DNA of 24,731 nt. It comes from a virus. The notes beneath the pieces were generated by a model. It was given only the letters and a program-made list of their open reading frames with translations, was not told the DNA's origin and made no database searches. The DNA is taken from IMG/VR virus record IMGVR_UViG_3300008050_000298, positions 1 through 24,731 of that record. One strand, written 5' to 3'. Each line of letters starts with the position of its first letter. Position 1 is the stretch's first letter. The translations under genes were made by a program, and so were the position numbers. Shown piece by piece: positions 1,678 through 20,144 of the stretch.

Positions 1678-1773
1678 ATGCCAAGTGGAAAAGGAACGTA
1701 CGGATCAAAAAGAGGAAGACCTCCTAAGAAGAAGAAGAAAACTTCTAGAAGTATGACTCGTAGAGGGTATTAG
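1678..1773 (+). CDS. 31-aa basic microprotein with AT-hook-like motif
   Basis: A short frame from ATG 1678 to TAG 1771-1773 encodes 31 residues. It begins MPSGKGTYGSKRGRPPKKKK and ends with an Arg-rich MTRRGY. A very strong AAAGGGAGGA ribosome site precedes the start, and the TAG overlaps the GTG of terL by one base, so it is embedded in the operon and almost certainly translated. GRP flanked by basic residues is the core of the AT-hook, a motif that inserts into the minor groove of AT-rich DNA. I recall similar GKGTYG...GRP microproteins in marine phages, unnamed. A role in packaging or condensing the AT-rich genome is inferred. Confidence 0.75.
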   Translation: MPSGKGTYGSKRGRPPKKKKKTSRSMTRRGY

Positions 1774-3101
1774 TGGACAAGGTATCCGAAAAACTTTATG
1801 AGTTAGTAGGATTTGATCCAACGGAATTACAAGTAAAGATATTAGATACTGACAAAAGATTTGTTTTAGTTGCTGGTGGAGAGCAAGCAGGTAAATCAAT
1901 GGTAGCATCTAAGTTTTTATTGGCACGCTTTATGCGTGACCCTAGCCCCGGTCTTTATTGGTTAGTTGCTGCTGACTATGAACGTACTCGTGCTGAGTTT
2001 GAATACTTAGCAGAGGATTTTAGTAAGATAGGAATATTATCTGAAGTAACTAAACGTGTAGACCCCGGTAGGATTGTACTGGCAGATGGCACAAGAATTG
2101 AAACTAAATCAGCAAAAGACCCACGAACACTAGCTATGCGTGCACCTAATGGTATTGTTGGGTGCGAAGCGTCACAGCTTGACTTAGAAACTTTTTATAG
2201 ATTACGTGGAAGGTGTGCACCAAAGAAAGGATGGTTGTTCCTAGGAGGAACATTTGAAAGTTCTTTAGGTTGGTATCCACAAACTTTTACAGCTTGGGAA
2301 TCAGGAGTGGGTGAAGAACAAAGTTTTTCACTTCCAAGTTATTCTAATCATCATCTCTATCCTGAAGGGCGTGATGATCCAGAAATTAAAAGATTGGAGG
2401 CCGTAGCTAGTGATGACTTTTTTATGGAGAGAATTGAAGGACTCCCTGTCCCTCCTAGAGGACTGGTGTTTTCCGAGTTTCGGGCATCGATCCATGCTGG
2501 TGAAGTGGATTACATCCCCGGTGAGCCTGTTCATGTCTGGATTGATCCCGGTTATGCTGGTGGTTATGCTCTTGAAGCGGTTCAAATAATAAATGATGAG
2601 ATAAGAATCTTTGATGAAGTGTACGAAATAGGTTTAGTTACAGAAGAAATAATAGATATAACTATTAGTAAACCTTGGTGGAAAGATGTGCAATATGGAG
2701 TTATAGACATTGCAGGGTATCAGCATCAAGCTATGCCAGCTCCTGCAGAAATCTGGATGAAGAAAACCGGATTATATATGAGTTCTGAGAAGGTTCAGAT
2801 CAATGATGGAACAGAAAGATTAAAGAGTTTCTTGAAAGTTGACCCCATTACAGGGTATCCTAGATTAACTATTGATCGTTCTTGTCAAGGAATACTGTCA
2901 GAGTTCGGTGCTGTTCCGAATCCATTTGATGGACAGACACGAGCATACACTTGGAAGATGGATAAAAGTGGAGCTATAGTAGGACAGACTCCTCAAGATA
3001 AGTACAATCATGGTGTAAAAGCTGTAATATATGGTCTTGTAAATCAGTTTGGTTATGGATACGTAGCCAATCGGAATAAAATTATGGTGCGACATTGGTA
3101 G
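1773..3101 (+). CDS. terL: Terminase large subunit (TerL), ATPase-nuclease
   Basis: The 442-residue packaging motor has both expected domains. The ATPase part has a Walker A loop GGEQAGKS at residues 35-42, a Walker B-like stretch ending GIVGCEA at about 127-133 with the acidic residue E132, and a LFLGGT coupling motif at about 155-160. The RNase H-like nuclease part shows its acidic residues in VWIDPG (D258), VIDIAG (D312) and DKYNHGVKAV (D409). Translation starts at GTG 1773, overlapping the stop of the microprotein, with AGAGGG upstream. It drives ATP-dependent DNA filling of the prohead through the portal and cuts the concatemer. At 442 residues it is at the short end for TerL but complete. 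Confidence 0.93.
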   Translation: MDKVSEKLYELVGFDPTELQVKILDTDKRFVLVAGGEQAGKSMVASKFLLARFMRDPSPGLYWLVAADYERTRAEFEYLAEDFSKIGILSEVTKRVDPGRIVLADGTRIETKSAKDPRTLAMRAPNGIVGCEASQLDLETFYRLRGRCAPKKGWLFLGGTFESSLGWYPQTFTAWESGVGEEQSFSLPSYSNHHLYPEGRDDPEIKRLEAVASDDFFMERIEGLPVPPRGLVFSEFRASIHAGEVDYIPGEPVHVWIDPGYAGGYALEAVQIINDEIRIFDEVYEIGLVTEEIIDITISKPWWKDVQYGVIDIAGYQHQAMPAPAEIWMKKTGLYMSSEKVQINDGTERLKSFLKVDPITGYPRLTIDRSCQGILSEFGAVPNPFDGQTRAYTWKMDKSGAIVGQTPQDKYNHGVKAVIYGLVNQFGYGYVANRNKIMVRHW

Positions 3102-4912
3102 CTCGAACAGCAGAAGAAATAACAAGATTAGTAGATGATCATTATGATGCAACCTATCCCTTTAGAGATAGGATGCAAAATGATTACGATCTATATAGAC
3201 TGAATCCTTATGACGCAGGAGATGGATATGAGTCCTATACTTCTAATGAACCAAGAACATATGCAGATAAAATTGTTTCTTGGTTAGCTGGAGCAGAACT
3301 TAGTATTCGTATTCCGAATATTGAAGAAGCTAGAGAACAAAGAGAAATGAATGATGCCAAAGAAAAGTTTCTTATTGGCGTACTTACTGGTGCAGACGAA
3401 AGACTTAGAAGAAGATTGCAACCATCTCTTAGAGAATCTCTTGCATGGTATATAGCACTTCGTGGGTGGTATTCAGGTAGAGCATTACTGCATAAAGACT
3501 CTGAAGATAAAACTCAAATAGATATTAAACCTTGGGATATAATGCATACTTACTGGGGAGAAGGGGAAGAAGGTTTATCTTGGGCTTGTTATAAAATTCA
3601 AAAGACAAAAGGTGAAATTTTACAGCAATATGGTATTGAATTACATACTGCAGATGACGAATTACCTACAGATATATATGATTTCTATGATGAAGAACAT
3701 AATATAGTAACTACTGGTACTACTATTCTTAAATCAGCTACACCTCATAATGCAGGTAGAGTGCCTGTGTTTATAGGAATGGTAGGGCCACAACCTCTTA
3801 TTCAAAACTTAGATAACAAAACAAGAACAGATACTATTGCTGACTACGGAGAAAGTGTTTATTCAGCTAACCGAGGTAATTATGAGAATCATAATTTTAT
3901 AATGTCGGTTATGATGGAGATGGTAGCACGATCTAGGAAGCAAGGTATTAAGATTATTTCTAGAGATGGACAAAAAACTCTAGATGAAGACCCATATAAA
4001 GCCGGAGCAGAAGTTGCATTGGGGCAAGGGGAAGATATACAGCCGTTAGGACTAATGGAAGTAGCCAGAGAAACTGGTGCATTCATGGGATTAGTAGCTG
4101 GTGAACTGCAACGTGGTGCTATACCACACTCTGTATATGGCGATTTGCAATTTCAATTGTCGGGATTTGCAATTAATACTTTAAGACAAGGTATAGATAC
4201 TATACTTTCCCCAAGAATTACTGCAATGGAAGATGCATACAAACAGATCACATTACTTATATGTGACCAATATGGTACAGGTATGTACGATCCAATTAGT
4301 GTTTCTGGTAGAGATAAAAACAGGATGTACTTTAGTGAAACAATAGCTCCTGATTCTATATTTCAAGCTGGTATGCCTGAAATAAAAATAGTTAGTCAAC
4401 TACCAGAAGACGATATGTCTCGAATGTCTATGGCACAAATGGCACGAGATGGTCAAACCCCATTACTTTCTGATAATTATGTTCGAGATAAAATTCTTGG
4501 ACTACAAGATGCAGACTCAATTGAGGATGCAATTAAAGAACAAATGGCTGAAAGAGTATTGCCCGAAGCATCATTGTGGACATTACTAGCAGCTACTGAA
4601 AATAGAGGAAGGCCCGACCTTGCACAATTCTATTATGGAGAACTTATGCATTTGTTACAACAAAAACAAATGATGAGAATGCAAAGTATGAATCCGGGCC
4701 CATCTTCAAATGGTATCACTCCAGAACCGGGAGGGGGTGGGCCCCCTACAGCTAACCCACAGGTAATGCCTAATGCAATGATGGGAGTGCCACCGCCTGC
4801 ACCTACACCTCAAGCTGGTGCTAATGTACCTCCGGGTACACCTAGACCGGGTGCACAAGATGATGATGAAGTCTTACGAAGAATGGGATTATTAGGGCCA
4901 AGGGGTGAATAA
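3095..4912 (+). CDS. Portal protein
   Basis: The 605-residue product follows terL directly, as portals usually do. The N-terminal half has the typical portal pattern: a helix with an RDRMQNDYDLYRLNPY segment, then YADKIVSWLAGAELSIRIP, an Arg-rich helix (DERLRRRLQPSLRESLAWY) and an IKPWDIMHTYWG strand. It would form the dodecameric ring through which DNA enters and leaves. Residues from about 530 are a low-complexity Pro/Gly/Met tail ending LLGPRGE. The start is TTG at 3095, seven bases inside the end of terL, with no Shine-Dalgarno sequence; the next in-frame Met is residue 27, which would cut into the domain. Translation is therefore probably coupled to terL. Confidence 0.85.
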   Translation: MVARTAEEITRLVDDHYDATYPFRDRMQNDYDLYRLNPYDAGDGYESYTSNEPRTYADKIVSWLAGAELSIRIPNIEEAREQREMNDAKEKFLIGVLTGADERLRRRLQPSLRESLAWYIALRGWYSGRALLHKDSEDKTQIDIKPWDIMHTYWGEGEEGLSWACYKIQKTKGEILQQYGIELHTADDELPTDIYDFYDEEHNIVTTGTTILKSATPHNAGRVPVFIGMVGPQPLIQNLDNKTRTDTIADYGESVYSANRGNYENHNFIMSVMMEMVARSRKQGIKIISRDGQKTLDEDPYKAGAEVALGQGEDIQPLGLMEVARETGAFMGLVAGELQRGAIPHSVYGDLQFQLSGFAINTLRQGIDTILSPRITAMEDAYKQITLLICDQYGTGMYDPISVSGRDKNRMYFSETIAPDSIFQAGMPEIKIVSQLPEDDMSRMSMAQMARDGQTPLLSDNYVRDKILGLQDADSIEDAIKEQMAERVLPEASLWTLLAATENRGRPDLAQFYYGELMHLLQQKQMMRMQSMNPGPSSNGITPEPGGGGPPTANPQVMPNAMMGVPPPAPTPQAGANVPPGTPRPGAQDDDEVLRRMGLLGPRGE

Positions 4913-6363
4913 TGGCAAATTGGGAAGTATATTCATCTAGAAACGGAAATATATATAACACATCTTTTTCTTCTGGAAGCTACTTACAACAAGTTGAAAA
5001 TATGGTTGTTGATTACGATACTATTGCTTCAGATACATTAATGAGTGAAAGTATAGATCACTATAATACTAGTATGTCTGATAAAATAAACGCTGCTTCT
5101 TCTGCAGGATATTTTTCTATGGGATTAAATACTGCTCCTGACAAACAAAGATTAGGTATAGCTTTAAATACTTTCAATAAAATAGGTGATGCAGTAAATA
5201 AAATTGTAGATACAAGTGCTATAGGTTTAGATGCACAAGGTGGATTATTACCACCTAATCAAATAGCTGAAAGTTATTTTAGTAGAAGTTCTGCTCCAGT
5301 ACGTGACCCTAAACAATATACATTAACAGATGAACAATTAAAATCTGTAAGTCCAACTAGTGCATCCGGAGATACGTTTAGAGATGTAGAAGATGAAGAT
5401 ATATATAAAAGAGATTTAGGATATAAAATTTTACAATGGAATGATCCTGAAACTGGAACAGTATATAAATTTCGAAACTGGGATGACGGAAGACCTGTAT
5501 CTAAAAATGATTTCTTAGATAAATCCGGATATGATAAATGGCTTAGTCATATTGCTAAAGACACAAGAAAGTTTAAAGAAAAAAAATTTGAACGTGATAC
5601 TCTTGATCCTACAACAGCTCGTACATCTGATCCATTTGGTAATTTACCATGGCAAACTGTGTATCAGGGAGTTGTAGATGATGCAGGTATAGGAAGTCCG
5701 GGTGCATATAATTATGCATTACAGCAAGGAATATCTGGTATACCAGAATTAAGAACAGCTCAAACTCAATTTTTAATTCAAGATAAATATGAAGCTCTTC
5801 ATAACGACCCAGATATGCTCGGTACAGATTATGGTAGAGCATTATTACAATCTAATCAGGAAGATGTAGATGGGCTTATTGATACTAGTAGTAGAGCTGG
5901 TAGAAATCCTTATTATGATTTCTTACAAGAATATAATCCATTGAAAGGTAATGAATTAATGAAAGCAGTTAATGATATTACTGATGTAGTTAGTTCATAT
6001 AAAACTGTAATACAAAGTGGAGAAGAAATACCAACTAGTGACTATTATGATGCTAGTAAGGATTGGCAACAACAAACTGATAGTCAAAGACAAGCCTTAT
6101 CTTGGACTACTAAATTTAAGACTGGAGAAAATGCAGAACAGTATCAAAAACAATTAGTAGCCTTGCCTATAATACAGAATACTCCTAATGTTCGTAGAGG
6201 TGAAATAGTACAAGTATTAAATAAGTTGTATAATAACTGGCAAACACAACCTAATAGGCCTACTGATGAAAGTTGGTTAGAGTTTGCAAGAAGTAAAAAT
6301 TATTGGGGTTTAGCTCCTAGTTATGCCCCCTCTGTTACTCCTGATTGGCAGAGTAGTTATTAA
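4912..6363 (+). CDS. Virion-associated protein of unknown function, 483 aa
   Basis: The ATG overlaps the portal stop (TAATG). The protein is soluble, rich in Asp, Gln, Ser and Tyr, with no membrane segment or catalytic motif that I can identify. Residues about 250-483 are related to the next gene. NPYYDFLQEYNPLKG (332-346) matches NPFGQFLQTYNPYSG there at 9 of 15 positions, and residues 401-443 match its 124-166 at 18 of 43, including GEN-AEQ and RRGEIVQVL. The first 250 residues are unique to this copy. Placement between portal and the giant gene suggests an internal virion or connector-associated protein, perhaps a partner of the giant protein. Function is unknown. Confidence 0.8.
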   Translation: MANWEVYSSRNGNIYNTSFSSGSYLQQVENMVVDYDTIASDTLMSESIDHYNTSMSDKINAASSAGYFSMGLNTAPDKQRLGIALNTFNKIGDAVNKIVDTSAIGLDAQGGLLPPNQIAESYFSRSSAPVRDPKQYTLTDEQLKSVSPTSASGDTFRDVEDEDIYKRDLGYKILQWNDPETGTVYKFRNWDDGRPVSKNDFLDKSGYDKWLSHIAKDTRKFKEKKFERDTLDPTTARTSDPFGNLPWQTVYQGVVDDAGIGSPGAYNYALQQGISGIPELRTAQTQFLIQDKYEALHNDPDMLGTDYGRALLQSNQEDVDGLIDTSSRAGRNPYYDFLQEYNPLKGNELMKAVNDITDVVSSYKTVIQSGEEIPTSDYYDASKDWQQQTDSQRQALSWTTKFKTGENAEQYQKQLVALPIIQNTPNVRRGEIVQVLNKLYNNWQTQPNRPTDESWLEFARSKNYWGLAPSYAPSVTPDWQSSY

Positions 6364-6379: not shown

Positions 6380-7027
6380 ATGGCACATATACCCGGACAT
6401 ATAGGTACTGGAGCAGAAAACTTATTAAGTGGCTATGATCCTGCTTCTTTAGCAACTATGGGGACTACTTATAATCAATATATTAGAAGTCAACTAGGAG
6501 CTAATCCATTAGCATATGCAGCTGCAGGCCGATTTGCTCCCTTTGCACAATTACAATATTTAGGGCAACCAGCTATGACAGGTACTTTAGGACTAGCTGG
6601 AGCTGATGTAGCTAATCCATTTGGTCAATTTTTACAAACTTATAATCCTTATTCTGGTATGGAGTTTGCCAACTTAGCTAATCAAGTAAGAGGAGCATTA
6701 AGTGGAACAGCAGATATGGCTGATCCAGCTCAACAATTACTTAGACAAAGATTTGGAACTGGAGATGAAGCTGAACAAAGACAATATTCATTAGCTGCTG
6801 CTCCAATATTACAAAGTATAGCTCCTGCATTAAGAGGAGAAGTAGGTAATGTATTAAGTAATATATATGAAGATTACATAGTAGCAGGGCCAGAAGGCAG
6901 ACCTTCATTCTTAGATTTTGCTGCAACAGGCGGAGAGGGAATGGGGCCAAGTTTATGGAACAGATTTAATGTTAGTGGTACAGGTGGTACACCTACAACA
7001 GGAAGTTACTTTGGTAGTGCTACATAA
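6380..7027 (+). CDS. Paralogue of the preceding protein, 215 aa
   Basis: An AAAGGAG site precedes ATG 6380. The protein is Ala/Gly-rich and lacks the first 250 residues of its larger neighbour. The aligned order is the same: a YNQYIRSQLG helix (about 31-40), NPFGQFLQTYNPYSG (79-93), then FGTGDEAEQRQYSLAAAPIL and RGEVGNVLSNIYEDY (125-166), then RPSFLDFA (174-181). The C-terminus is a Gly/Thr-rich tail. The conserved polar and aromatic residues suggest an assembly or packing module rather than an enzyme. Duplication inside this operon is inferred from the alignment. Confidence 0.8.
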   Translation: MAHIPGHIGTGAENLLSGYDPASLATMGTTYNQYIRSQLGANPLAYAAAGRFAPFAQLQYLGQPAMTGTLGLAGADVANPFGQFLQTYNPYSGMEFANLANQVRGALSGTADMADPAQQLLRQRFGTGDEAEQRQYSLAAAPILQSIAPALRGEVGNVLSNIYEDYIVAGPEGRPSFLDFAATGGEGMGPSLWNRFNVSGTGGTPTTGSYFGSAT

Positions 7028-7395
7028 TGACAATGCAAAATGATAGTCCATGGTCTAGTTGGATGGATAATCCATACATGGCAATATTAGAAGAATCTCC
7101 CGGTGCAGCATATTTTAGTTATGCTGACCAATGGAGTTCTCCTGCACAACAACAGTATTATCAAAATCAATTTCAAAACGTATACAACCAATACTTAGGT
7201 ACACTAGGTACAGCTTTAAGGTCAGGTGCATCTGGGACTGAAGGTGCTCCATCTATATCTGATATAGGACAAATGGGATTTACTGATTACTTAGGTGGTA
7301 TGGATTGGACAGATAGATATACATCACTACCTCCAACAATGCGAGGAGACTACACTTCTTCATATAATCCAAGAACTAGACAAATATATTTCTAG
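7027..7395 (+). CDS. Small Tyr/Gln-rich protein, possible third module copy
   Basis: The ATG overlaps the previous stop (TAATG); a second ATG at 7033 is also possible. The 122-residue product is rich in Tyr, Gln and Ser. Its middle (SPAQQQYYQNQFQNVYNQYLG, about 38-58) resembles the RGEVGNVLSNIYEDY part of its neighbour in the N(V/I)Y..Y core. It is followed, as there, by a Gly-rich linker, a PS(I/F) segment and an aromatic stretch. The C-terminus ends with SSYNPRTRQIYF, a compact basic-aromatic tail. I read it as a distant, shorter member of the same set, with moderate trust. It sits immediately before the giant gene. Confidence 0.75.
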   Translation: MTMQNDSPWSSWMDNPYMAILEESPGAAYFSYADQWSSPAQQQYYQNQFQNVYNQYLGTLGTALRSGASGTEGAPSISDIGQMGFTDYLGGMDWTDRYTSLPPTMRGDYTSSYNPRTRQIYF

Positions 7396-7404
7396 GAGGA
7401 AGAT

Positions 7405-10400
7405 ATGGTACAACCTGCTCCAAGAGCCACTATAGGTACTGGGTTTGGTCTTGGGTATCAATTTGCGAAACAACTAATAGAGTCAGATAGTTGGTTACGT
7501 TCTCAAGCAATTCCATCAACTACTTCTTTTATGGCACAAATGGGCAGAAAATTTGGAGATGGTCATATAGGTCGTATTGATGAAGCTAATGATCCTGTAG
7601 GTTACAGTATAGATGACATTAACGAATATGCTAAGAGAGGTGAATCTTTTGACTTGAATATAGAGCCTGTAGAATATGCTAATCGACTTACAGAACAATA
7701 CCTTAATTTAGATAAATGGGGTAGTGTATTTGGTGATTCTATAGAAATAAAAAATAATCCTATATCACAAATATATGAGTATCCTAGTTCATGGGAAAAT
7801 AGTAATAATCCTAAAAAATATAATGCATGGATACAAAACGAACAATTAATAAAAGAAGCTAGAGAAAATGAATTACAAGTTCTTGAGGAAATTCCAGCTA
7901 TAGGAAAGGATTCATATCAAAGTAGAATATATGGAACACAAGAACTAGTAGCGACTAGAGATACTATTGGCCCTGTTAATGCACAAGAATATTTAAATAC
8001 TGTTGATAATACTACATTAGATATAACAGGATTAAATTTTAAAGATATCAAAGGGTTAGATAAGAAAGACCATTCAGTACATTGGAGTCAAGATAATTGG
8101 AAAGATATTATATATAATCTTGCAAGTGGTTCAAGTAAAATGATGGCTGCAATACCACTCACTCCAATAGATCCAGTAGCGTTAGTAGAAACACTAAAGG
8201 AAAATTATAAAAGAGCACAAGAAGAAATAAATACAGCTGAGCAAGCACATAAGTCTGGTTTTTTTGCACCACCAGATTCTTTAACTAGAACAAAAGAAGG
8301 TTATAATCCTGTAGTAGATTTTGTTAAATCACTTGCAGAAAATGCAGTACAAAGTAAAAACCCAATGAATATCCTTGAAGGTGCGGGAGAATTTTTTGAC
8401 GAAGGTCTAGCACAAATAGGAAGACCTCTACAACAAAGAATTTATATGGATCAGCCTCGTAAATCAATGTTTGGTGATGATATTGGTATAGAAGATATTC
8501 CAACTATGGCGAAAAATCCTAATATGGCTGTTGGAGCATTAGCACTTAGTTTGTTTCGTGACAACAAATCTCTACTTTATTATGATGCTATTGTAAAAGA
8601 TCAAAAAGAAAAGGGTACTTATAAAAAAGGTTGGGTTGCAGAAGATAATAGATTAGATCAAGCAGCACAAATGGCTATAGATAATGGAGATATTCCTTGG
8701 CCTAAACAAATAGGAGCTGAAGTATTAACTGATCCTATTGAATTAATACCCACTATTGGTATATATGGTGGTATAACTAAAGGTGCAATAAGAGGTGGAA
8801 GGACAACTGTTAAAGCATTAAGGCCTAGAGCTATAACATTTGATGCATTAAAAAATGAATTACGTTTACCTAAGATAAATACTTTAGGACTTAGTAAACC
8901 TAATATATCTTTTAAATCATTACTTAATACAGATATAAATACTAAGATTGAAATGAAACGTATGATACCTACGTTAAAAAATATTTTTACACGTAATCCT
9001 ACAATAGATAAAAATTTAATATCTGAACCAAGAGTTAATTTACAAAATATTTTAGAAAATAATTTAGGTCTTGCTCACGAAGAATCAGATGCACTTATAA
9101 ATCTTACAGGTAATGCTGCATTAAGAGCAGGAAAAAGTCCAGCAGATGTATTTTCTAAAACTAATCATGAAATATTTGAAGGCAAATCTTTTAATTATGT
9201 AAATGATTTATTTATTCCAGATAATACATTATATAAATTTGGAAATGAATCTATTGAAACTACTACACGTAATTCTAATTTATTAATTGAAAAAGGTCAT
9301 CCTGTATTCCAATCTAATTTATCTGTGGCTTTTGATTTAATTGATGAAGTAGATCAAATTAATCGTATACGTGTAGATAAAAATGCAATTAATATTAAAG
9401 AGGGTGGATTAAATCTTATAGGTAGAAACGGATTATTTACATCTGAAGGTGTAAGGAAATCAAAAGAATTTGAAAGAATAGGATTAACCTTATCTAATGA
9501 TGAATTAGCTTCTACAGGAATAATAAGATGGCTTGAAGATAAATTAGCACAAGGTACAAGAACTGTAAGTTTAGATGAATTACGTAGATATGAAGAAGAT
9601 AGTAGAGGAATACTTATTGCTAATAATGCTCCTGATTTATATGGAGGACTTGGTATCTATTCTTATGCTACAACTCCTGGCCTAGTTGTAGCAAATGAAG
9701 TTACAACACTTCAATTCATAACTAGAAATATAGTAGAACTATCAGATGACTTAGGATATTTTCTTAAAGAAGAAAGTGAGCATTATAAAGATATTAGAGA
9801 TAACAGAGTTGTTGTTTCTAATTTATCTAATCTTTTACCAAACTCAAAAGGATTAAATTGGAAATCTATTTTTAAAGCTAACGAAAATATAGCTATTCAT
9901 GAACGAGGTAATATAAGATGGTTTCTTGATCTTGAAGATGGCCTAATTAAATTAGGAAGTATGACTGATGAATTTCAATCTGATTATTTTTCTAAACTTA
10001 ATAGAGGTGGTAGAGCTCATTCATTTACTAATTTGTGGAAATCTTTAACTACTGGTTTGGACTCAGAACTTGTACCATGGAGACTCTCACAGGGCACTAG
10101 GCCCAGTTATGCTAGGGAAATATCTGAAACTGCACAAAAAGCTATATATAATATACCTGAGCAAATAAGTAAACGAACTAATGAAAATTCTGTTTGGGCA
10201 TCTAAACATAGTGTTGATGAATTTAAAAATCAATTTCCTAATGATCCAAGATTAGAAGCTATAACAAGAGGAAACGGATACACAGGTCGTAAACGATTTG
10301 TTCATATGACTCCTTTTAATAAAACAATATCAATTGCAGGATATAAAACCGAAAGATATATTGTTGCTGGGTTAGATGAAATAGGAGAAACATTTGTAGA

Positions 10401-13400
10401 TTTAACTTTCAATGATGCTATAAAACCTTTTCAAAGATTATTTACAGAAGATAATGAATTATTAAATTTAATAAAAACAAAAGAAACTAGAAATATAATT
10501 AATGAAAAAGTATTTAGTATTAATCCAGAACAATTTGTTAAATTAGTTTTTAGAGATACTAGTATTTTTGACACAAGTACTGGGAAAGCACCTATAGAAG
10601 TTAATCTTAAAACTGTAATAAATAATAATGTTATTGAAGAATTTAATAGAATATTTAATGCTATAAAACAACAAACAAATACTGAACTTTTATATGTACA
10701 TATAAAACATTTAGTTCAAGATACTCATCCAATAGTTGAACTTGATATTGGCACAAACATTCCTTCTAAATATTTTAAAGGTAAACCTAAAATTGTTTCT
10801 GATTCAGAACAAATAATAAATTTCATACCAAGCAGTATGTTTCCTTGGTCACCAACTAATATATCTAAAGGAACTAACTTATCTTTTAGAAAATTATTAG
10901 ATAAATTTGAGTATATGGTTAAAGATGAAATGTTTACTGAAGTCTTAGGTAAGACAGATAATTATCCTAAGTCTAGTAATTTTGAAGAAGCTGAATTTAT
11001 TTCAGAAAGTTATACAAAAGTTACAGATGAACCTACAAAAACATCATATGACCCACAGTTTATAATTTTTTCTAAAGCACAAATTAGAGATGGTTTAGCT
11101 CCTATACGAATTAAAAAATTTCCAGAAGGTTGGTCTATTACAGAAAATACTTTTACTCCAGAAAAACTTGCTAAAAAAGACCCTGCCTTTACTTATAGAG
11201 ATGAAGAAAAAGATGCTATAGACGATGCTTTTATATTTTTAAATAGTCATAGAAATGATACTGAACCTCTTTATATGATTGATTCTATGTTTGCTGAAAA
11301 ACATTTCAATATAATGGCAGGATATATTTTACAAAAAGCATCTTTACAACGTAATCCATTTCATATTATTAATACTTCTGAAGTTTTAAAACACAGATAT
11401 TATGATGTTACAACTCCATATTCTTTATATGGAGAAAATGGAAAAATTATGAAAGCATTTCTTGACCATGCTAAAGGTATGTTAGGTCAAGTTGGATATA
11501 AGGTTCAAAATAAAAGTTTAAAACCTTTAATTAAAAAAGTTAAAATGCTGACACCAGAAAATCCATCTCAATACGCTGAAGATGCTTCCAGCTATTATGA
11601 TACAAGTGTTACTCCTTTTAAACGTATAGATAAAGCAGATACAGAATTAGACAGATTTGGTGAATATACTGATAAACAATTAGCTGAATTTGATAAAAAT
11701 CCTAATATTAGAAAAGGTATAGGAGCAGAAGAATATACTAATAACTTTATGCCTGATGTAAAAATAGCTTTATGGGATATTGTAGGTAACGAAAAATTAA
11801 CTAAAGTTTTAAGTCAGTTTGAATTTGGAGATGAGAGTAATCGTCTTGGTGAAGAATTTTTAAATAAGTTATCACAGTTAGATGCTCAAATGGAGCCAAT
11901 AATACAAGACCCCAATTTACGTGTTAAGTATCCTGAAATTGTAGAAGAATCTGATAAAATATCTTCTATTGAAAAATATTTTGATAATATAATACAACAA
12001 CTATCTGGTGTAGCAAAAGATGCAGATGGTAATCCTATTATAAATCAAACCTTTACAATAAAAGAAGCTATTGAACATTTTGGAATACCAACTCAAATTA
12101 CTAAATCGTTTTCTCCAGCGAAATTTGTAGCAAATAAGGCTGAGACCGGTAATCTAGGAAATACTTTTTCTAATAATAGTGTTGATGATTTAATTACTTA
12201 TATAGCTGAGAAAAGTTTAGAAATTATAGACCCAACTAATGCAAAAGATATTACAGGGTACAATCGACTAACCCTTAAACCTAGAGAATTAGAAGGTATG
12301 CCCGGATTTGAAGTACCGGGTATAGATTTAAATGCAAATGTAGAAAACTTATTTGGAGTAGCTACAGATTTAAATGGCAAGCCTTTAGAAAATGCACCAA
12401 AAACTCTTGGGGAAATTTATCGTCATAATCAAATTAGATTATATAAAGCTAGACCTGAAACAAATACAAATGGAAATATATTAGGCTATACAGATTTTTC
12501 TAAAGATGGCGAAACTATTATTAAAATATTAAGAGCAGGTGATTTTAATACTGTAGTACATGAATATGGACATGTTATTAGAAGAACTTTATTAAATGAA
12601 CGGGACTTAGAAACTATTGGTCGCACTATAATGGGTGACAATAATTGGGATGCTTTACCTAATAAAAATGTATGGACAGTAGAAGCAGAAGAAATGTTTG
12701 CTAATCAACTTGAAATATATATTAGAACTGGTCAAGCTAAACGAGGATTAGCTCGTATCTTTGATAGAATCATTGATTACTTAAAAACTTTCTATCGCAG
12801 TATACGTAATACTACTGTAGAAAAAGAATTAAATCCTGAACTTAAAAAATTCTTTGATGAGTTTATAGATATTGGTAGACCTACTAGAGAAAAAATTATA
12901 GCTAGTTTACCTACACATGAACAAGCAGACGTATTAAAATTCTTTGGATATGATGGGGGATCAATCCCTACTCCTATATTACCTAGTGCAATTAAAGGAG
13001 TAGCTTTACATGATCAAGCTAGATATGCAGAACAACAAGCAGAAACTATTTTATTCAAAACAGAAGATGATCATTTTACTGGATTAAGAAACAGTATGAA
13101 ATCTCAAGAACAAGCTATTAATGAATTACCTTGGGATCAATATAAACAATGGGAAGTAGAAAATTTAGATGAAACAGAAATAGGGTTAGAACAATTACCT
13201 GACCTACAGGATATGGAACAAATTATTAATGCTAACTTTATTGTAGATAGTTGGGAAGTTCTAGCAAGAACTCCGGTTATTAAAGAATTAACAAACTTAT
13301 TTAATCCTAGTGCTGGAGCACGTAATCCATTATTTAAATCTATTGTTTCTCTATTTAGAATGAAAGAACAATCTAAAAGTTTAACTACTAATGCTATATC

Positions 13401-16400
13401 ACGATTAGACAGATTAGGTTCTTCTCAAAAAGTATTTGGTAAATTTGATGATACAGGTCGTATAGCAGATGGGCCATTAAAAGGATTTAATGTAAACGAT
13501 ATACGTTCAAGACCTTTAGACCCTAGATGGAGAAATTTATTAACAGATAATCAAAGAGTTTGGATACGTACTGCTGAATCTTTAGAACGTGCTAAGTTAG
13601 CTATGTTAAAAGCAGAAGGTATAGAGATTAGAACATTATCTGAATCAGAAGGAGGAGGTACAGTATACGCTGGTAGACGTACCTTTGCACAAATATCTTC
13701 TGATGGAGAAGTACTTGACCTTATTAATATGGGTACAAGTTCTAGACCCGGAGCAAAAGCAGCATTTGAAAAAGCACGTAAGTTTGAAACTATGGAAGAA
13801 GCTATAGAAAATGGATATAGATATATACCAGATGAAGAAGCATTAAGAATTAATATAGAAGCAGCATACAATAGAGTTGCATATCAAAGACATATGCAAT
13901 ATATATTAGATAATGTTGTTACTACACGTACTGGTGCTGCTCCTGAAAAATTAAGATTTGCTAGAGATGTAGCTTCTGAAAGATTAAGTAGAGTAAAGGC
14001 TTTATTAAAACAGTTACATCAAACTAAACGTGGAGAGAATATACACCCATCTACATTACGTTCACTTAAAAATGCATTCCCAGAATTAGGTGGCAGACTA
14101 GATACTATATCTAAATTAACTTTACAAGATTTAATAGAAGCTGGGAAAAAAGCTAGAAATCAACCTATTAGTATGAAACCTAAAAAAGAAACTATCCGAA
14201 AAATATTTAATGAAAGATTAAAATTAGAAACTCAAATAAAAGCATTAGATGAACAAGGATTAGAAGTTCCTCCAGATTTAATTAATGAATTAAATAAACA
14301 AAAAAGAAAACATTGGTGGCACAACATGGCTTTTGAAAAGGCATGGGAAAGCTATAGAGCAGGTAATGGGTTTATATATACATTTGAATTATCTGCAAAA
14401 TCTATTTTAATGGAACCTCGTGTTGGATTAATAGATGAACTAATTGATATAGTACAAGGAACTACTATTCCCGGAACTAGAAGAAAACGTGGAGGAATAC
14501 TACAAGACCTTAATAAAAAAGCAGCTGAAACTCAACAAGCATTTACTAAAGCAAAAGAAGAAGCTACACAATTACAACGTGGTGAAGGAATATTTAGAGA
14601 TGCTCCTGCATATACTGGTCGTATATTCACTAAAGATCAACCTGTATCTTTAGGTGGTATGAATGGTCAAGATGTTAGCAATATGTTAACTAGACAAATT
14701 ATCGGTAAGACTGAAGGTTATGAAGGTGCGTTTGCAAATGTATTAAAGGCTACTAGAGTATTTAATGCTGCTACAAGATTCTTTACATTAGGAGCAGATG
14801 CATCTCCATTCTTAATCCATTTAATATTTTTGTGGGGAGAATCAGCTACTAATCCTAAATTAATGGCAAACGTAATGAAAGGATTTGTATCAGCTTTATT
14901 TAGTCCTACATATCACGCAAAACTTATTGATGATAATGCTGAGCTACTTGCAAAATATCCTGATGTGTTAGTAGGAAGTGGGGGAAGATTTGAAACAACA
15001 GAATATTTTAATATGATTAAACAATCTGGTTTAAATAAATATAAACCTTTTCGTATAGGAAGAAAGATTATAGAAGCTCCATATATTCCAGCACAAAGAG
15101 CATTTGAATCTGTAATAGATAGTGCAGGTATACAATTATTAAAAATGTTTGATCATTTAGGTGTAGATGCTAAATCTATACGTGAAATATCTGATTTTAC
15201 TAACAATATAAGAGGTGTATCTTCAACTAAAAGAATAGGTGTATCTTCAAATCAAAAACAATGGGAACAACAATTAATGTTAGCTCCTTCTTACAATAGA
15301 GCAATAGCTGCATTGTTGTCAGATTTGGTTAAACCATCTAAAAATATGCGTGACTTTACTCCCGGGATTTCTACTAATGGAGACTTACGTATACAGTTAA
15401 CTAGAAGAGCATTAAATCGTGGAATAACAGCAATAGCATTGTTAGTTGTAGCTGCTAATATGGCACAAGATATGTCTTTTGAAGATATTGTAGAACAAAG
15501 ATTAAATCCTAATAGTCCCGGATTCTTAGGAGTAAACATAGGTGGTACTGAAATTGCTATTGGTAGTAAAGTTGTATCTATAATTAAGTTTTCAACACGA
15601 ATGGCAGTAGCTACATATGAAGGAAATTCAGAAGAATTTATTCCACAAAGTATGTCAGAGTTAGGAGCACCTCTTCAATTTATTAGAGGTAATTTAAGTT
15701 TTGGTGCTCAATCAGCTACAACAATTCTTACTGGTAGAACTTATATGGGAGATAGAATATATCACGAAGGTATATGGGATACTGCAAAAGCATTTGGTAA
15801 GCACGTATTTCCCGGCCCATTCTCAGGGCCTATATGGGCACAGTCTGTTATGTTTGAAGGTGGTAGTGTCACAGATAAAGGAACAAGAGGTGTAGTAGAA
15901 TCTGTTGGCGGTAGAGCTTATCCAGAAGGTTCGTATCAAATACTAAGAGAATTTACAAAAAATAATTTAGATATGGATTATGCAGATTTAGAACCTTTTG
16001 AGAAAAGAATTATAAGAACATTATTAGAACCTCAATTAACTCCATTACAAATGGAACGTATTGAACAAGGTGATAATACTGCAGGATATTGGGCAGCTGT
16101 AGAAGATTTAGATGCTATACGATTTGCACAAGAAGAATCTATATTACTTAAATACCAACAAAGGACAGGTAAATATGCAGAAGGTGGTATCTCTGCATTA
16201 AGACAAGATTTTTATGCTATACAAGAAAATTATGCTCAACATAAAGCATTGTTAAATCAACAATATGATATGTTTCAAGATGATGTAGAGTATGATGAGG
16301 ATTCTTCAGAACAATTTGTAATGTCTCAATGGTATGCATTATATGAAAAAGCAACTGATCCTCAAACAGGATTATTAAACTACGATAAATTACAAGCATT

Positions 16401-16650
16401 ACAAGGTAAATTTTGGAATGAAACATTACCTAATGGAGATTCATATAGAAATTATTTTGCTTATATACGTAGAAATATTTCTAGCACAATACATCCAGAA
16501 GAGTTCGCAAGAGTTTTAAGTCCAGAAACTGTACAAACTATGAATTTATCAGCTGAAGCACGAATAGATTTATTAAATAGTAGACCCGGTTGGGCACAAG
16601 CATTTGACAAATACGGATATAAATTAGAAGATTTCTCTATATGGAAATAA
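7405..16650 (+). CDS. Giant 3081-aa internal virion 'polyvalent' protein with metallopeptidase motif
   Basis: A single uninterrupted 9.2-kb frame starts at ATG 7405 after an AGGAGG site. The clearest motif is HEYGH at residues 1719-1723 (preceded by TVV and followed by VIRR), with a glutamate in EAEEMFA (E1763) about 40 residues on. This is the zinc-binding pattern of gluzincin-type metallopeptidases. Near residue 2035 a 'DPRWRNLLTDNQRVWI' helix region begins, and around 2450-2480 and 2670-2685 there are hydrophobic stretches (FFTLGADASPFLIHLIFLW; ITAIALLVVAANMA) inside a basic, Arg-rich C-terminal third. These features recall the large polyvalent proteins of phages, which are carried in the virion and injected. 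Residues 1-1700 have no domain I recognise, apart from IGAEVLTDPIELIPTIGIYG (about 434-453), a membrane-like helix common in such proteins. No lysozyme or transglycosylase motif is evident. Being between the portal trio and the scaffold gene suits a protein packed inside the head. Confidence 0.9.
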   Translation: MVQPAPRATIGTGFGLGYQFAKQLIESDSWLRSQAIPSTTSFMAQMGRKFGDGHIGRIDEANDPVGYSIDDINEYAKRGESFDLNIEPVEYANRLTEQYLNLDKWGSVFGDSIEIKNNPISQIYEYPSSWENSNNPKKYNAWIQNEQLIKEARENELQVLEEIPAIGKDSYQSRIYGTQELVATRDTIGPVNAQEYLNTVDNTTLDITGLNFKDIKGLDKKDHSVHWSQDNWKDIIYNLASGSSKMMAAIPLTPIDPVALVETLKENYKRAQEEINTAEQAHKSGFFAPPDSLTRTKEGYNPVVDFVKSLAENAVQSKNPMNILEGAGEFFDEGLAQIGRPLQQRIYMDQPRKSMFGDDIGIEDIPTMAKNPNMAVGALALSLFRDNKSLLYYDAIVKDQKEKGTYKKGWVAEDNRLDQAAQMAIDNGDIPWPKQIGAEVLTDPIELIPTIGIYGGITKGAIRGGRTTVKALRPRAITFDALKNELRLPKINTLGLSKPNISFKSLLNTDINTKIEMKRMIPTLKNIFTRNPTIDKNLISEPRVNLQNILENNLGLAHEESDALINLTGNAALRAGKSPADVFSKTNHEIFEGKSFNYVNDLFIPDNTLYKFGNESIETTTRNSNLLIEKGHPVFQSNLSVAFDLIDEVDQINRIRVDKNAINIKEGGLNLIGRNGLFTSEGVRKSKEFERIGLTLSNDELASTGIIRWLEDKLAQGTRTVSLDELRRYEEDSRGILIANNAPDLYGGLGIYSYATTPGLVVANEVTTLQFITRNIVELSDDLGYFLKEESEHYKDIRDNRVVVSNLSNLLPNSKGLNWKSIFKANENIAIHERGNIRWFLDLEDGLIKLGSMTDEFQSDYFSKLNRGGRAHSFTNLWKSLTTGLDSELVPWRLSQGTRPSYAREISETAQKAIYNIPEQISKRTNENSVWASKHSVDEFKNQFPNDPRLEAITRGNGYTGRKRFVHMTPFNKTISIAGYKTERYIVAGLDEIGETFVDLTFNDAIKPFQRLFTEDNELLNLIKTKETRNIINEKVFSINPEQFVKLVFRDTSIFDTSTGKAPIEVNLKTVINNNVIEEFNRIFNAIKQQTNTELLYVHIKHLVQDTHPIVELDIGTNIPSKYFKGKPKIVSDSEQIINFIPSSMFPWSPTNISKGTNLSFRKLLDKFEYMVKDEMFTEVLGKTDNYPKSSNFEEAEFISESYTKVTDEPTKTSYDPQFIIFSKAQIRDGLAPIRIKKFPEGWSITENTFTPEKLAKKDPAFTYRDEEKDAIDDAFIFLNSHRNDTEPLYMIDSMFAEKHFNIMAGYILQKASLQRNPFHIINTSEVLKHRYYDVTTPYSLYGENGKIMKAFLDHAKGMLGQVGYKVQNKSLKPLIKKVKMLTPENPSQYAEDASSYYDTSVTPFKRIDKADTELDRFGEYTDKQLAEFDKNPNIRKGIGAEEYTNNFMPDVKIALWDIVGNEKLTKVLSQFEFGDESNRLGEEFLNKLSQLDAQMEPIIQDPNLRVKYPEIVEESDKISSIEKYFDNIIQQLSGVAKDADGNPIINQTFTIKEAIEHFGIPTQITKSFSPAKFVANKAETGNLGNTFSNNSVDDLITYIAEKSLEIIDPTNAKDITGYNRLTLKPRELEGMPGFEVPGIDLNANVENLFGVATDLNGKPLENAPKTLGEIYRHNQIRLYKARPETNTNGNILGYTDFSKDGETIIKILRAGDFNTVVHEYGHVIRRTLLNERDLETIGRTIMGDNNWDALPNKNVWTVEAEEMFANQLEIYIRTGQAKRGLARIFDRIIDYLKTFYRSIRNTTVEKELNPELKKFFDEFIDIGRPTREKIIASLPTHEQADVLKFFGYDGGSIPTPILPSAIKGVALHDQARYAEQQAETILFKTEDDHFTGLRNSMKSQEQAINELPWDQYKQWEVENLDETEIGLEQLPDLQDMEQIINANFIVDSWEVLARTPVIKELTNLFNPSAGARNPLFKSIVSLFRMKEQSKSLTTNAISRLDRLGSSQKVFGKFDDTGRIADGPLKGFNVNDIRSRPLDPRWRNLLTDNQRVWIRTAESLERAKLAMLKAEGIEIRTLSESEGGGTVYAGRRTFAQISSDGEVLDLINMGTSSRPGAKAAFEKARKFETMEEAIENGYRYIPDEEALRINIEAAYNRVAYQRHMQYILDNVVTTRTGAAPEKLRFARDVASERLSRVKALLKQLHQTKRGENIHPSTLRSLKNAFPELGGRLDTISKLTLQDLIEAGKKARNQPISMKPKKETIRKIFNERLKLETQIKALDEQGLEVPPDLINELNKQKRKHWWHNMAFEKAWESYRAGNGFIYTFELSAKSILMEPRVGLIDELIDIVQGTTIPGTRRKRGGILQDLNKKAAETQQAFTKAKEEATQLQRGEGIFRDAPAYTGRIFTKDQPVSLGGMNGQDVSNMLTRQIIGKTEGYEGAFANVLKATRVFNAATRFFTLGADASPFLIHLIFLWGESATNPKLMANVMKGFVSALFSPTYHAKLIDDNAELLAKYPDVLVGSGGRFETTEYFNMIKQSGLNKYKPFRIGRKIIEAPYIPAQRAFESVIDSAGIQLLKMFDHLGVDAKSIREISDFTNNIRGVSSTKRIGVSSNQKQWEQQLMLAPSYNRAIAALLSDLVKPSKNMRDFTPGISTNGDLRIQLTRRALNRGITAIALLVVAANMAQDMSFEDIVEQRLNPNSPGFLGVNIGGTEIAIGSKVVSIIKFSTRMAVATYEGNSEEFIPQSMSELGAPLQFIRGNLSFGAQSATTILTGRTYMGDRIYHEGIWDTAKAFGKHVFPGPFSGPIWAQSVMFEGGSVTDKGTRGVVESVGGRAYPEGSYQILREFTKNNLDMDYADLEPFEKRIIRTLLEPQLTPLQMERIEQGDNTAGYWAAVEDLDAIRFAQEESILLKYQQRTGKYAEGGISALRQDFYAIQENYAQHKALLNQQYDMFQDDVEYDEDSSEQFVMSQWYALYEKATDPQTGLLNYDKLQALQGKFWNETLPNGDSYRNYFAYIRRNISSTIHPEEFARVLSPETVQTMNLSAEARIDLLNSRPGWAQAFDKYGYKLEDFSIWK

Positions 16651-16675: not shown

Positions 16676-17413
16676 ATGGTTACAGAAAATACAAATGACA
16701 GTCCAAATTTTAGTAATTTTGAAAATATAGAAACTACTGAAGTTACAGAAACTGTAGAAGAAGCTGCCCCTGTAGAACAGAATGCACCAGCACCTGCAGA
16801 TGATAGTCCTGCACCTACTGCTGATGCCACTACTACACCACAGGTTACGCCAACTCCTACAATTCCTAATACTGATGTTGCTCAAGTGGAACAACAGCTT
16901 GCTGAAATGCGAAAAGAACAAGCTAAAATGGAACACGAGAGACAAATTCGGAATCTTGAACAAGAAGCCTTAGACATGGAGAGAAAGTTAATTGATGAAG
17001 GCCAAGCTCCGGCAGAAGCTAGAAATCAAACAATGACTCATCTTCAAGGTAAGGTTCAAAAGATAGAAACTGAAGCAAAACAAAAGCAGCAAATAGAAGT
17101 TGCTCAAGCCAAAAGGAATGCCTCTGTACATTTTGCAAAAAAGTATAGTTTAGGTATAGATGATCTCACAGAATTAGAAAGGGCTAATAACCCTGACGAG
17201 ATGGAAGCTATAGCTAAAACAAAATCTACTATTGCAAAACAACAAAGAGAAATAGAGGAATTAAAAAAAGCTCAGGCTCAACCCCAGAGTTTTGATAGTA
17301 ATTCTCCTACTGCTACTGCTGGTACAAACCCTAACCAGAAATGGATAGATGCGTATCAAGCAGGAGATCGTTCCCCTGAAGCAACTGCTGCTGTAAGAAA
17401 ACTATTACAATAA
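16676..17413 (+). CDS. Capsid scaffolding protein
   Basis: The 245-residue product has the composition and position of a scaffold. It lies 22 bases before the major capsid gene. It has an acidic, Thr/Pro/Ala-rich disordered N-terminus (residues 1-65), then long charged heptads (about 68-150, for example QQLAEMRKEQAKMEHERQ) and a second coiled coil around 176-200. A short C-terminal helix (QKWIDAYQAGDRSPEATAAV and RKLLQ) follows a Ser/Thr/Asn linker; in scaffolds the C-terminal helix contacts the coat protein. No protease motif is present, so removal from the prohead would need exit or another protease. GGAG at 16665-16668 serves the ATG at 16676. Confidence 0.8.
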   Translation: MVTENTNDSPNFSNFENIETTEVTETVEEAAPVEQNAPAPADDSPAPTADATTTPQVTPTPTIPNTDVAQVEQQLAEMRKEQAKMEHERQIRNLEQEALDMERKLIDEGQAPAEARNQTMTHLQGKVQKIETEAKQKQQIEVAQAKRNASVHFAKKYSLGIDDLTELERANNPDEMEAIAKTKSTIAKQQREIEELKKAQAQPQSFDSNSPTATAGTNPNQKWIDAYQAGDRSPEATAAVRKLLQ

Positions 17414-17435: not shown

Positions 17436-18311
17436 ATGGCTCAAACAGCAACAACTGGGAATTTAGATAGTGCCCAGAAAATAATAATAAATACTTCTAG
17501 ATATACAGAAGAACATAATGCACCAGCTATGGCACTTATAGAACAATTTAGTTTGCCTAAAGGTGCAAAACAAGTAACTGTTCCTAAAGTCGGACAGATG
17601 GAAATGTCAGACTTAGTAGATGGTGTTGACATCATTGATGATGAAGATATCAAAATGACAACTGTAGATTTAACTTCTAGCGAGGTTGGTTCTAAAGTTA
17701 TTCTTACTGATAAACTTCTTCGTCAAATGGCTGACAATGTATTTGCTATGATTGGGCGACAGATGGGTGACGCAATGGCTAGAAAGAAAGATACTGATGT
17801 TCTAGCTCTTTATACAAACTTAAATGGTGGTACTAAACTAGGTGCTGCTACTAAGTTTATGAAAGCTACAAACGTACAAGCATGTATATCTTTTGCAAAA
17901 GCAAACAAGTTTGGTAGCCAACTGTACATACTTCATCATCCAAATGCAGTAGCATATCTTTCTAAAGAAGCAGCTACTGTAGCTTCTACTGCATCTGCCT
18001 CAATACCTGATGGGTTTACAGCAGATTTACTTTCAAACTTCTTTAGTGGTCTACGACCATTTAATGGTGTTCCAATCTTTGAAGATGGTAATATTGTTGA
18101 AGATTCTTCTGGAGATGGTATTGGAGTAATAGCAGATAAAGGTGCAATGGCTGTACTTAACTCTGTAGAAACTAGAACAGAACGACAAAGAGATGCTTCC
18201 CTTAGAGCTACAGAAGTAATCATGACTTCCGATTACGGAGTCTTTGAACTTGATGATAGTAAAGGGGCTGGTATTACATTTGACGTAGCAGACTTAGCAA
18301 CAAATAACTAG
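17436..18311 (+). CDS. Major capsid protein (HK97-like fold expected)
   Basis: The 291-residue product follows the scaffold and has a strong AGGAGG ribosome site, as expected for the most abundant virion protein. The N-terminal arm is followed by KGAKQVTVPKVGQMEMSDLV (residues 42-61) and a long helix region SKVILTDKLLRQMADNVFAM with GRQMGDAMARKKDTDVLALY (about 86-126). These correspond to the E-loop and spine helix of HK97-type coat proteins. The C-terminal half (GFTADLLSNFFSGLRPFNGV, PIFED, GVIADKGAMAVL) fits the A-domain. Codon use is typical of the operon (glutamate GAA 12, GAG 1). No signal for N-terminal processing is seen. Assignment is by context and fold pattern. Confidence 0.83.
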   Translation: MAQTATTGNLDSAQKIIINTSRYTEEHNAPAMALIEQFSLPKGAKQVTVPKVGQMEMSDLVDGVDIIDDEDIKMTTVDLTSSEVGSKVILTDKLLRQMADNVFAMIGRQMGDAMARKKDTDVLALYTNLNGGTKLGAATKFMKATNVQACISFAKANKFGSQLYILHHPNAVAYLSKEAATVASTASASIPDGFTADLLSNFFSGLRPFNGVPIFEDGNIVEDSSGDGIGVIADKGAMAVLNSVETRTERQRDASLRATEVIMTSDYGVFELDDSKGAGITFDVADLATNN

Positions 18312-19969: not shown

Positions 19970-20144
19970 AAATATAACACCAAATCTTGATGATATTAAT
20001 ACAGTATTTAGTAATAATCCTAATGCTGCACAACAATTACATATTGTTACATTAGAAAGATTATTAAAAGAACAACAGGAACAAAACGCAGAGCTACAAG
20101 CAAAGTGTGATTCTTGTAAAAGTGAGAAGAAATCTAAAACATAA
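19959..20144 (+). CDS. Small coiled-coil protein, 61 aa, TTG start
   Basis: The frame opens at TTG 19959, eleven bases inside the previous gene, with GGAG seven bases upstream. No in-frame ATG or GTG gives a comparable product. The middle is a continuous helix with heptads (HIVTLERLLKEQQEQNAELQ), followed by a CDSC pair and a Lys-rich tail. The CxxC could bind metal in a dimer or form a disulfide. Function is unknown; the size and tight overlap suggest a partner of the 122-residue protein. It has its own start signal and no slippery heptamer is evident, so I do not call a frameshift. Confidence 0.6.
   Translation: MTSENITPNLDDINTVFSNNPNAAQQLHIVTLERLLKEQQEQNAELQAKCDSCKSEKKSKT

Follow-up and report, generated by a model that had tools for sequence, protein, structure and literature searches.

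A giant phage protein with a conserved metallopeptidase domain at a module boundary, encoded in an exchangeable slot before the scaffold gene

The source record, IMGVR_UViG_3300008050_000298 of IMG/VR, is a 24.7-kb virus fragment from an uncultured marine phage, and the window analyzed here covers its positions 1 to 24,731. The gene order is terminase small subunit, a 61-aa protein, terminase large subunit (terL), portal, g5, g6, g7, a giant gene, scaffold, major capsid protein (MCP) and tail-side genes. The following features of this module are used below.

1773 to 3101, plus strand: terminase large subunit (phrog_2, E = 2.5e-16)
3095 to 4912, plus strand: portal, named by position and size; without database match, kept beside terL
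4912 to 6363, plus strand: g5, 483 aa, possible companion internal protein; position variable in relatives
6380 to 7027, plus strand: g6, 215 aa, paralogue of the g5 C-part (blastp, E = 1e-13); present in long-giant loci
7027 to 7395, plus strand: g7, 122 aa, conserved small protein directly before the giant (alignment of 16 loci)
7394 to 7399, plus strand: AGGAGG, Shine-Dalgarno-like, 5 bases before the ATG (from the sequence)
7405 to 16650, plus strand: giant protein, 3,081 aa, whole gene; intact in L001 and L102, with homologues in more than 30 loci
16676 to 17413, plus strand: scaffold, named by position and composition; its place matches the annotated scaffolds of HTVC111P and HTVC026P
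17436 to 18311, plus strand: major capsid protein (Pfam Phage_capsid_4, E = 2e-9; HTVC111P MCP, E = 3e-19)

The giant frame opens with ATG behind a good ribosome-binding site, the upstream AGGAGG, and the single frame of 3,081 residues described in an earlier note on this DNA was borne out. A second record has a nearly identical contig (L102, 99%) in which this frame is likewise unbroken, and relatives share about 50% identity with it across 1,490 residues, indicating that the giant is not an assembly or reading artefact. The earlier note correctly placed it between portal-side genes and scaffold/MCP, the portal and scaffold being named by synteny and make-up. Its statement that no other ejection gene is visible is doubtful, because g5, g6 and g7 lie directly upstream; nor is it obvious that the giant replaces a whole core gene set, as it may have smaller companions in these three. 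Identity between g6 and the C-part of g5 is 28% (E = 1e-13), and the place of g5 is taken in relatives by variable proteins of 369 to 1,016 aa. No tape-measure gene was recognized in the window, and relatives as long as 39.9 kb showed neither such a gene nor one for a tail tube, a gene content that suggests a short-tailed phage. PDB sequence searches with profiles of g7, g15 and g16 returned nothing significant, so that the short-tail assignment is one from gene content only. A scan of 84,980 species genomes with the MCP, intended as a hint to the host, gave no match.

Within the giant protein, we distinguished three parts.

7405 to 12381, plus strand: N-part, residues 1-1659, fast-diverging (low identity; without Pfam match in pieces)
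11272 to 11403, plus strand: divergent copy of an unnamed giant-protein segment, residues 1290-1333 (hhalign, subclade profiles)
12382 to 12924, plus strand: metallopeptidase domain, residues 1660-1840 (phrog_9880, E = 5e-9; external HMM; AF2 model)
12559 to 12573, plus strand: HEYGH, residues 1719-1723, candidate two Zn ligands and general base (conservation)
12691 to 12693, plus strand: E1763, candidate third Zn ligand, in an EExFA helix (invariant in alignments; model helix 101-117)
12925 to 16647, plus strand: C-part, residues 1841-3081, conserved, outside Pfam, candidate packaging/ejection part (homologues)
14779 to 14835, plus strand: hydrophobic segment, residues 2459-2477 (Kyte-Doolittle; aligned D.S...I motif conserved)
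15409 to 15465, plus strand: hydrophobic segment, residues 2669-2687 (Kyte-Doolittle)

Pfam scans of the whole giant and of pieces gave no match, and no named enzyme or LPD was found in the N- or C-part, which leaves the peptidase as the sole named domain. The two hydrophobic segments announced near residues 2460 and 2675 were found, with Kyte-Doolittle peaks of 1.47 (2459-2477) and 1.52 (2669-2687); they are borderline and not clear transmembrane helices. The description of the C-terminal third as Arg-rich holds as a mild enrichment, since its 6.5% arginine is weak against 4.5 to 5.2% in the other thirds. The net charge of this third is +3, compared to -20 and -24 for the other two.

HEYGH lies at residues 1719-1723 as claimed, and E1763 is the second glutamate of EEMFAN. 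The motif alone is weak evidence, because about 3% of shuffled versions of the giant sequence contain one or more HExxH; it is conservation that makes it real. H1719, E1720, H1723, R1726, W1757, E1762 and E1763 were invariant in ten non-redundant long members, and the same residues were invariant in a 61-sequence alignment of giant-protein peptidases with a mean identity of 24%. In picking the latter, HExxH was required for most rows and either motif could seed the search, and the ten-member comparison is thus the cleaner evidence. An external HMM, built from 49 sequences of other phage giants with the window's subclade left out, matched the window domain at E = 2e-36. It also matched subclade members, ORF24 of Xanthomonas phage CP2 and vir555_00054, and found nothing below E = 1 in short slot proteins, N4 gp50 or HTVC026P gp30.

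The AF2 model computed from the 61 sequences (pLDDT 80) consists of H10-16, E19-24, E34-40, E46-50, H56-70, which carries HEYGH, and H101-117, which carries E1763. This topology agrees with the core given for polyvalent MPTases, namely, a helix, three strands, the HExxH helix and then a glutamate in the following conserved helix (PMC5512222). A first model from 6 sequences (pLDDT 57) and its Foldseek run were uninformative and were superseded by this one. Foldseek of the model against the PDB reached at best E = 0.11, for a protein that is not a peptidase, and recovered no solved zincin; against BFVD it returned giant phage proteins, two at E below 1e-3, one of which is named a large-polyvalent-domain protein. 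PDB sequence searches with profiles of the peptidase and the C-part gave nothing significant. As for the structural check proposed in the earlier note, HEYGH sits in a polyvalent-MPTase core, but Foldseek gave no match to a solved gluzincin. The proposal of a metallopeptidase with E1763 as the predicted third ligand is backed by the invariance, the external HMM and the model, and both sequence and topology lend good support to its assignment to the polyvalent MPTases. This class of phage giant-protein metallopeptidases is already known, and the window protein is a further member. Another giant, of 4,168 aa (L184:1-12504), combines the same peptidase with ddrB-ParB and PBECR5 nuclease domains (Pfam).

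Six distant giants (L164, L167, L174, L176, L178 and L182) lack HExxH at the aligned place, where L164, L167 and L174 have IEEISH or IEEITH, and L179, L180, L181 and L214 have HExxxH or a like variant. This points to active-site loss and variation in the peptidase group, and HExxxH forms of polyvalent peptidases have been reported (PMC5512222). We consider it probable, with some confidence, that the window peptidase is active. A structural or metal-binding fold without proteolysis, serving packaging or the regulation of neighboring domains, would agree with the motif loss in L164, L167 and L174 and with domain C1 of the N4 virion RNA polymerase (vRNAP), which has HExxH with protease activity unreported in the part of PMC12633501 used here, where the C-terminal domain is described as inhibiting the polymerase. 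We regard this as unlikely, since the His, Glu, His and Glu residues and R1726 are invariant in 10 of 10 long relatives despite strong divergence elsewhere.

The peptidase begins where the protein changes from variable to conserved. Over 28 pairs of peptidase-bearing proteins, identity was 15 to 32% in the N-part and 34 to 77% in the peptidase plus C-part, compared to 69 to 94% in the MCP. Against L002, whose MCP is 91% identical, the giant showed about 30% identity up to residue ~1650 and 85 to 92% right after HExxH, with a sharp step near residue 1690. A search of viral contigs with the N-part found three relatives only. Wholesale swapping of N-terminal domains was set aside, as the N-parts of long giants are distantly homologous, and the N-part variation appears to be fast divergence and/or allelic replacement rather than a succession of unrelated domains. 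The segment at residues 1290-1333 was detected by hhalign with subclade profiles (94 to 95% probability, E = 4e-8 to 9e-8, 44 to 45 columns), the probability being only 6% with a profile of the window, L002 and L016 alone; it has no Pfam name. All 15 giant codons that differ between the window and L102 are in the N-part, most of them clustered at residues 1308-1325, where eleven differences fall within 54 bases (window 11326-11379). This suggests a small converted or hypervariable patch, as a hint from few contigs. Elsewhere in the same pair, in a stretch otherwise nearly identical, five adjacent bases (window 19997-20001) are TAATA in the window and GTTAT in L102.

Residues 2450-3010 of the C-part are common to approximately 20 to 29 loci. 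The C-part is homologous to that of the L093 giant (hhalign 95%, E = 2e-8). L093 shares the peptidase and also has a region that aligns to vir555, the latter itself matching ART-PolyVal weakly. No homology was found between the C-part and CP2, or between the C-part and LPD38-type giants, for which only a forced global alignment gives 40%.

We next consider the slot before the scaffold, for which the loci studied are the best 80 of 371 relatives from a capsid-based search. Among the loci listed, every contig long enough to show it has one large gene as the frame preceding the scaffold, and complete slot genes mostly encode ~1,400 to 3,188 aa, with two shorter ones (746 and 991 aa) that are possibly fragments. 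The slot protein diverges much faster than the capsid; the neighbors of the slot are stable, terL being 66 to 70% identical in six relatives. In many slot giants, blastp similarity to the window's giant is confined to the C-terminal ~550 residues. Among the loci listed, 24 of these giants group in a cluster of their own, in which Pfam LPD38 (PF18857) occurs; it was found in 9 of 31 scanned slot-mates (best E = 1.5e-17), with no match above the gathering score in the window giant. LPD38 has been reported only from phage-type polyvalent proteins (PMC5512222). One slot giant of 2,328 aa (L079:2228-9211) contains a C5-cytosine DNA methyltransferase at residues 525-856 (Pfam, E = 8e-16), which suggests that this slot can also deliver anti-restriction cargo. 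The enzyme and the LPD38 slot-mates bear on whether the giant could be a tape-measure or purely structural core protein without effector role. It is the largest gene of the virion module, in which no tape measure was recognized; however, the length of slot proteins ranges from ~1,000 to 3,200 aa at constant capsid type, and enzyme swapping is unexpected of a tape measure, making a purely structural role quite improbable.

The peptidase is confined to a minority of slot proteins: those of the window, L002, L016/L092/L149, L085, L105/106/108, L109/118, L111, L112, L114/116 and L117, and fragments, the complete ones measuring 2,854 to 3,188 aa. In 26 non-redundant relatives with the same type of MCP, scaffold and slot, the domain is missing, indicating that it is accessory and neither a maturation enzyme nor generally needed for ejection. 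The usual place of a prohead maturation protease, between portal and scaffold/MCP, is the one point in favor of assigning that function to the giant; the 26 peptidase-less relatives led us to reject this reading, whose probability is minimal. A tree of the MCP from 36 non-redundant loci whose slot content is known requires four or more changes of the peptidase state over well-supported branches, and L085, with the peptidase, and L072, without it, are sisters. Slot content and capsid are thus clearly uncoupled, to which a swap of the giant or of the capsid would fit equally, as the MCP may recombine. Whole slot proteins may be exchanged among related phages at one fixed gene position, with a possible contribution of capsid recombination.

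The MCP is distantly related to those of the pelagiphages HTVC111P, HTVC026P, HTVC112P and HTVC202P, of phage DSL-LC06 and of Microcystis phage Mae-JY09. Among the distant phages inspected, the same slot holds small genes only in DSL-LC06, a MuF protein in Mae-JY09 (Phage_Mu_F, PF04233, E = 1e-17), and MuF-like proteins in HTVC111P and HTVC026P. MuF proteins thus share the portal-scaffold slot in phages with related capsids, but the window giant gave no match to PF04233 and differs in this respect. HTVC026P gp30 (L008:11402-13228) has an extra C-part of ~280 aa with HEFGHH and a weak Pfam ATLF match (E = 8e-4); HTVC111P gp33 (L006:12640-13629), 71% identical to it, is without that part and has no HExxH tail. 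By its motif, the gp30 C-part is a predicted accessory peptidase of this slot, independent of the one in the window giant.

Two results uphold the earlier note's comparison with large polyvalent proteins: LPD38 occurs in slot-mates, and another peptidase-bearing giant has a homologous C-part. Phage-type polyvalent MPTase proteins such as vir555_00054 and CP2 ORF24 share the peptidase, the giant size and the virion-gene context; in CP2 and vir555, however, the giant follows tail and internal-virion genes, whereas the window giant lies between portal-side genes and scaffold. Encoding among virion or late genes, a hallmark of polyvalent proteins, is seen in its gene order. As for the number of distinct domains, the peptidase is the one named domain of the window giant, whose N-part also holds the divergent unnamed segment; the methyltransferase and LPD38 are in slot-mates. 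The N4 vRNAP (gp50, Schitoviridae) is similar in size (about 3,000 to 3,500 aa for both proteins), in having smaller proteins encoded directly upstream and in its layout of a large N-part, an HExxH domain and a large C-terminal part (more than 1,100 aa for N4 C2). In PMC12633501, vRNAP is described as an ejected protein with an N-terminal domain, polymerase, HExxH-bearing C1 and large helical C2, in that order; encapsidation of vRNAP requires its C-terminal 1,400 aa (PMC5512222). No homology was found by hhalign, which gave a probability of ~1% against 11 vRNAPs (C1-C2 region), and family scans with Pfam and PHROG found no T7-like RNAP domain in the giant, so that the likeness appears to be one of plan, not membership.

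T7 gp16 and P22 gp16 would share the proposed role, each being the largest of an ejected set, with two hydrophobic stretches and fast divergence (PMC8954989). The window giant is two to five times longer, has a peptidase and lacks a recognized transglycosylase or family match. DarB-like giants of Bcep22-type podoviruses, likened here by description, are also giant single genes in a podovirus virion module, and the 4,515-aa protein of JC1 (gp69) was detected in virions by mass spectrometry (PMC9144972); unlike the window giant in architecture, it is annotated as helicase/antirestriction.

Taken together, the giant is likely an ejected polyvalent protein. Our computations establish the domain with its invariant active-site residues, the boundary between modules and the exchangeability of the slot; everything beyond a conserved peptidase that stands at such a boundary, in a slot among virion genes, is inferred, including virion location, ejection, catalysis and self-cleavage. 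The best explanation overall, which we hold to be rather more probable than its negation, is a virion-internal protein that is ejected and in which the peptidase cuts the N-part free of the delivery half. The C-part (~1,240 residues with two weakly hydrophobic segments) would probably serve head packaging and passage into the cell. The middle domain would be a zinc metallopeptidase with ligands H1719, H1723 and E1763 and general base E1720, and the N-part (~1,650 residues) would be a rapidly diversifying effector or anti-defense region. Most likely, the peptidase would cut the chain near the junction of N-part and peptidase, during or after delivery, and free the N-part. Release of the N-part is favored because the peptidase is strictly conserved at the junction while the N-part diverges fast. 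Cleavage after ejection is the likelier timing because N4 vRNAP is packaged uncleaved (PMC5512222); P1 DdrB is processed before packaging (PMC5512222). Points against this explanation are that Foldseek matched no solved zincin, that relatives with the same capsid do without the peptidase, that the two hydrophobic segments are borderline and that no conserved cleavage site emerged. Self-cleavage as the main job of the peptidase has, in our estimate, slightly less than an even chance, and host proteins are a less probable set of targets.

In the competing account, the peptidase is an injected effector that cuts one or more host proteins, whereas the giant itself either remains a single chain or is processed by proteases of the host. 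The minority presence of the domain suits cargo and not machinery, effector use is listed as an option in PMC5512222, N4 vRNAP stays uncleaved, and an extra HExxH C-part is present in HTVC026P gp30 and missing from HTVC111P gp33. The junction position and a conservation far higher than that of the N-part nevertheless suit a self-directed enzyme better, and we rate such host attack as possible though doubtful.

Predictions of peptidase-bearing polyvalent proteins go back years, and N4 vRNAP, the one studied best, is packaged without being cut. More interesting than the peptidase itself are a slot whose content is exchangeable, an N-part that is hypervariable and the comparison of relatives with and without the peptidase. 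This phage group is a natural experiment, with the same capsid and the same slot in the presence and absence of the domain and with a single boundary at which a conserved delivery half meets a hypervariable one. Self-release and host attack can thereby be tested directly against each other. A tentative further reading is that the slot is a capsid-delivered chassis with exchangeable cargo, in which the conserved C-part delivers, the N-part, hypervariable through an arms race, targets the host, and the peptidase at the junction releases this N-part; if true, this would be a capsid-delivered counterpart of polymorphic toxins with built-in release proteases. The phage group also suggests that uncultured marine phages hold a reservoir of anti-host domains still without names. 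In a relative of ~40 kb, the ORF at L098:3618-4472 resembles, by eye, an ArdC-type N-terminal domain (antirestriction).
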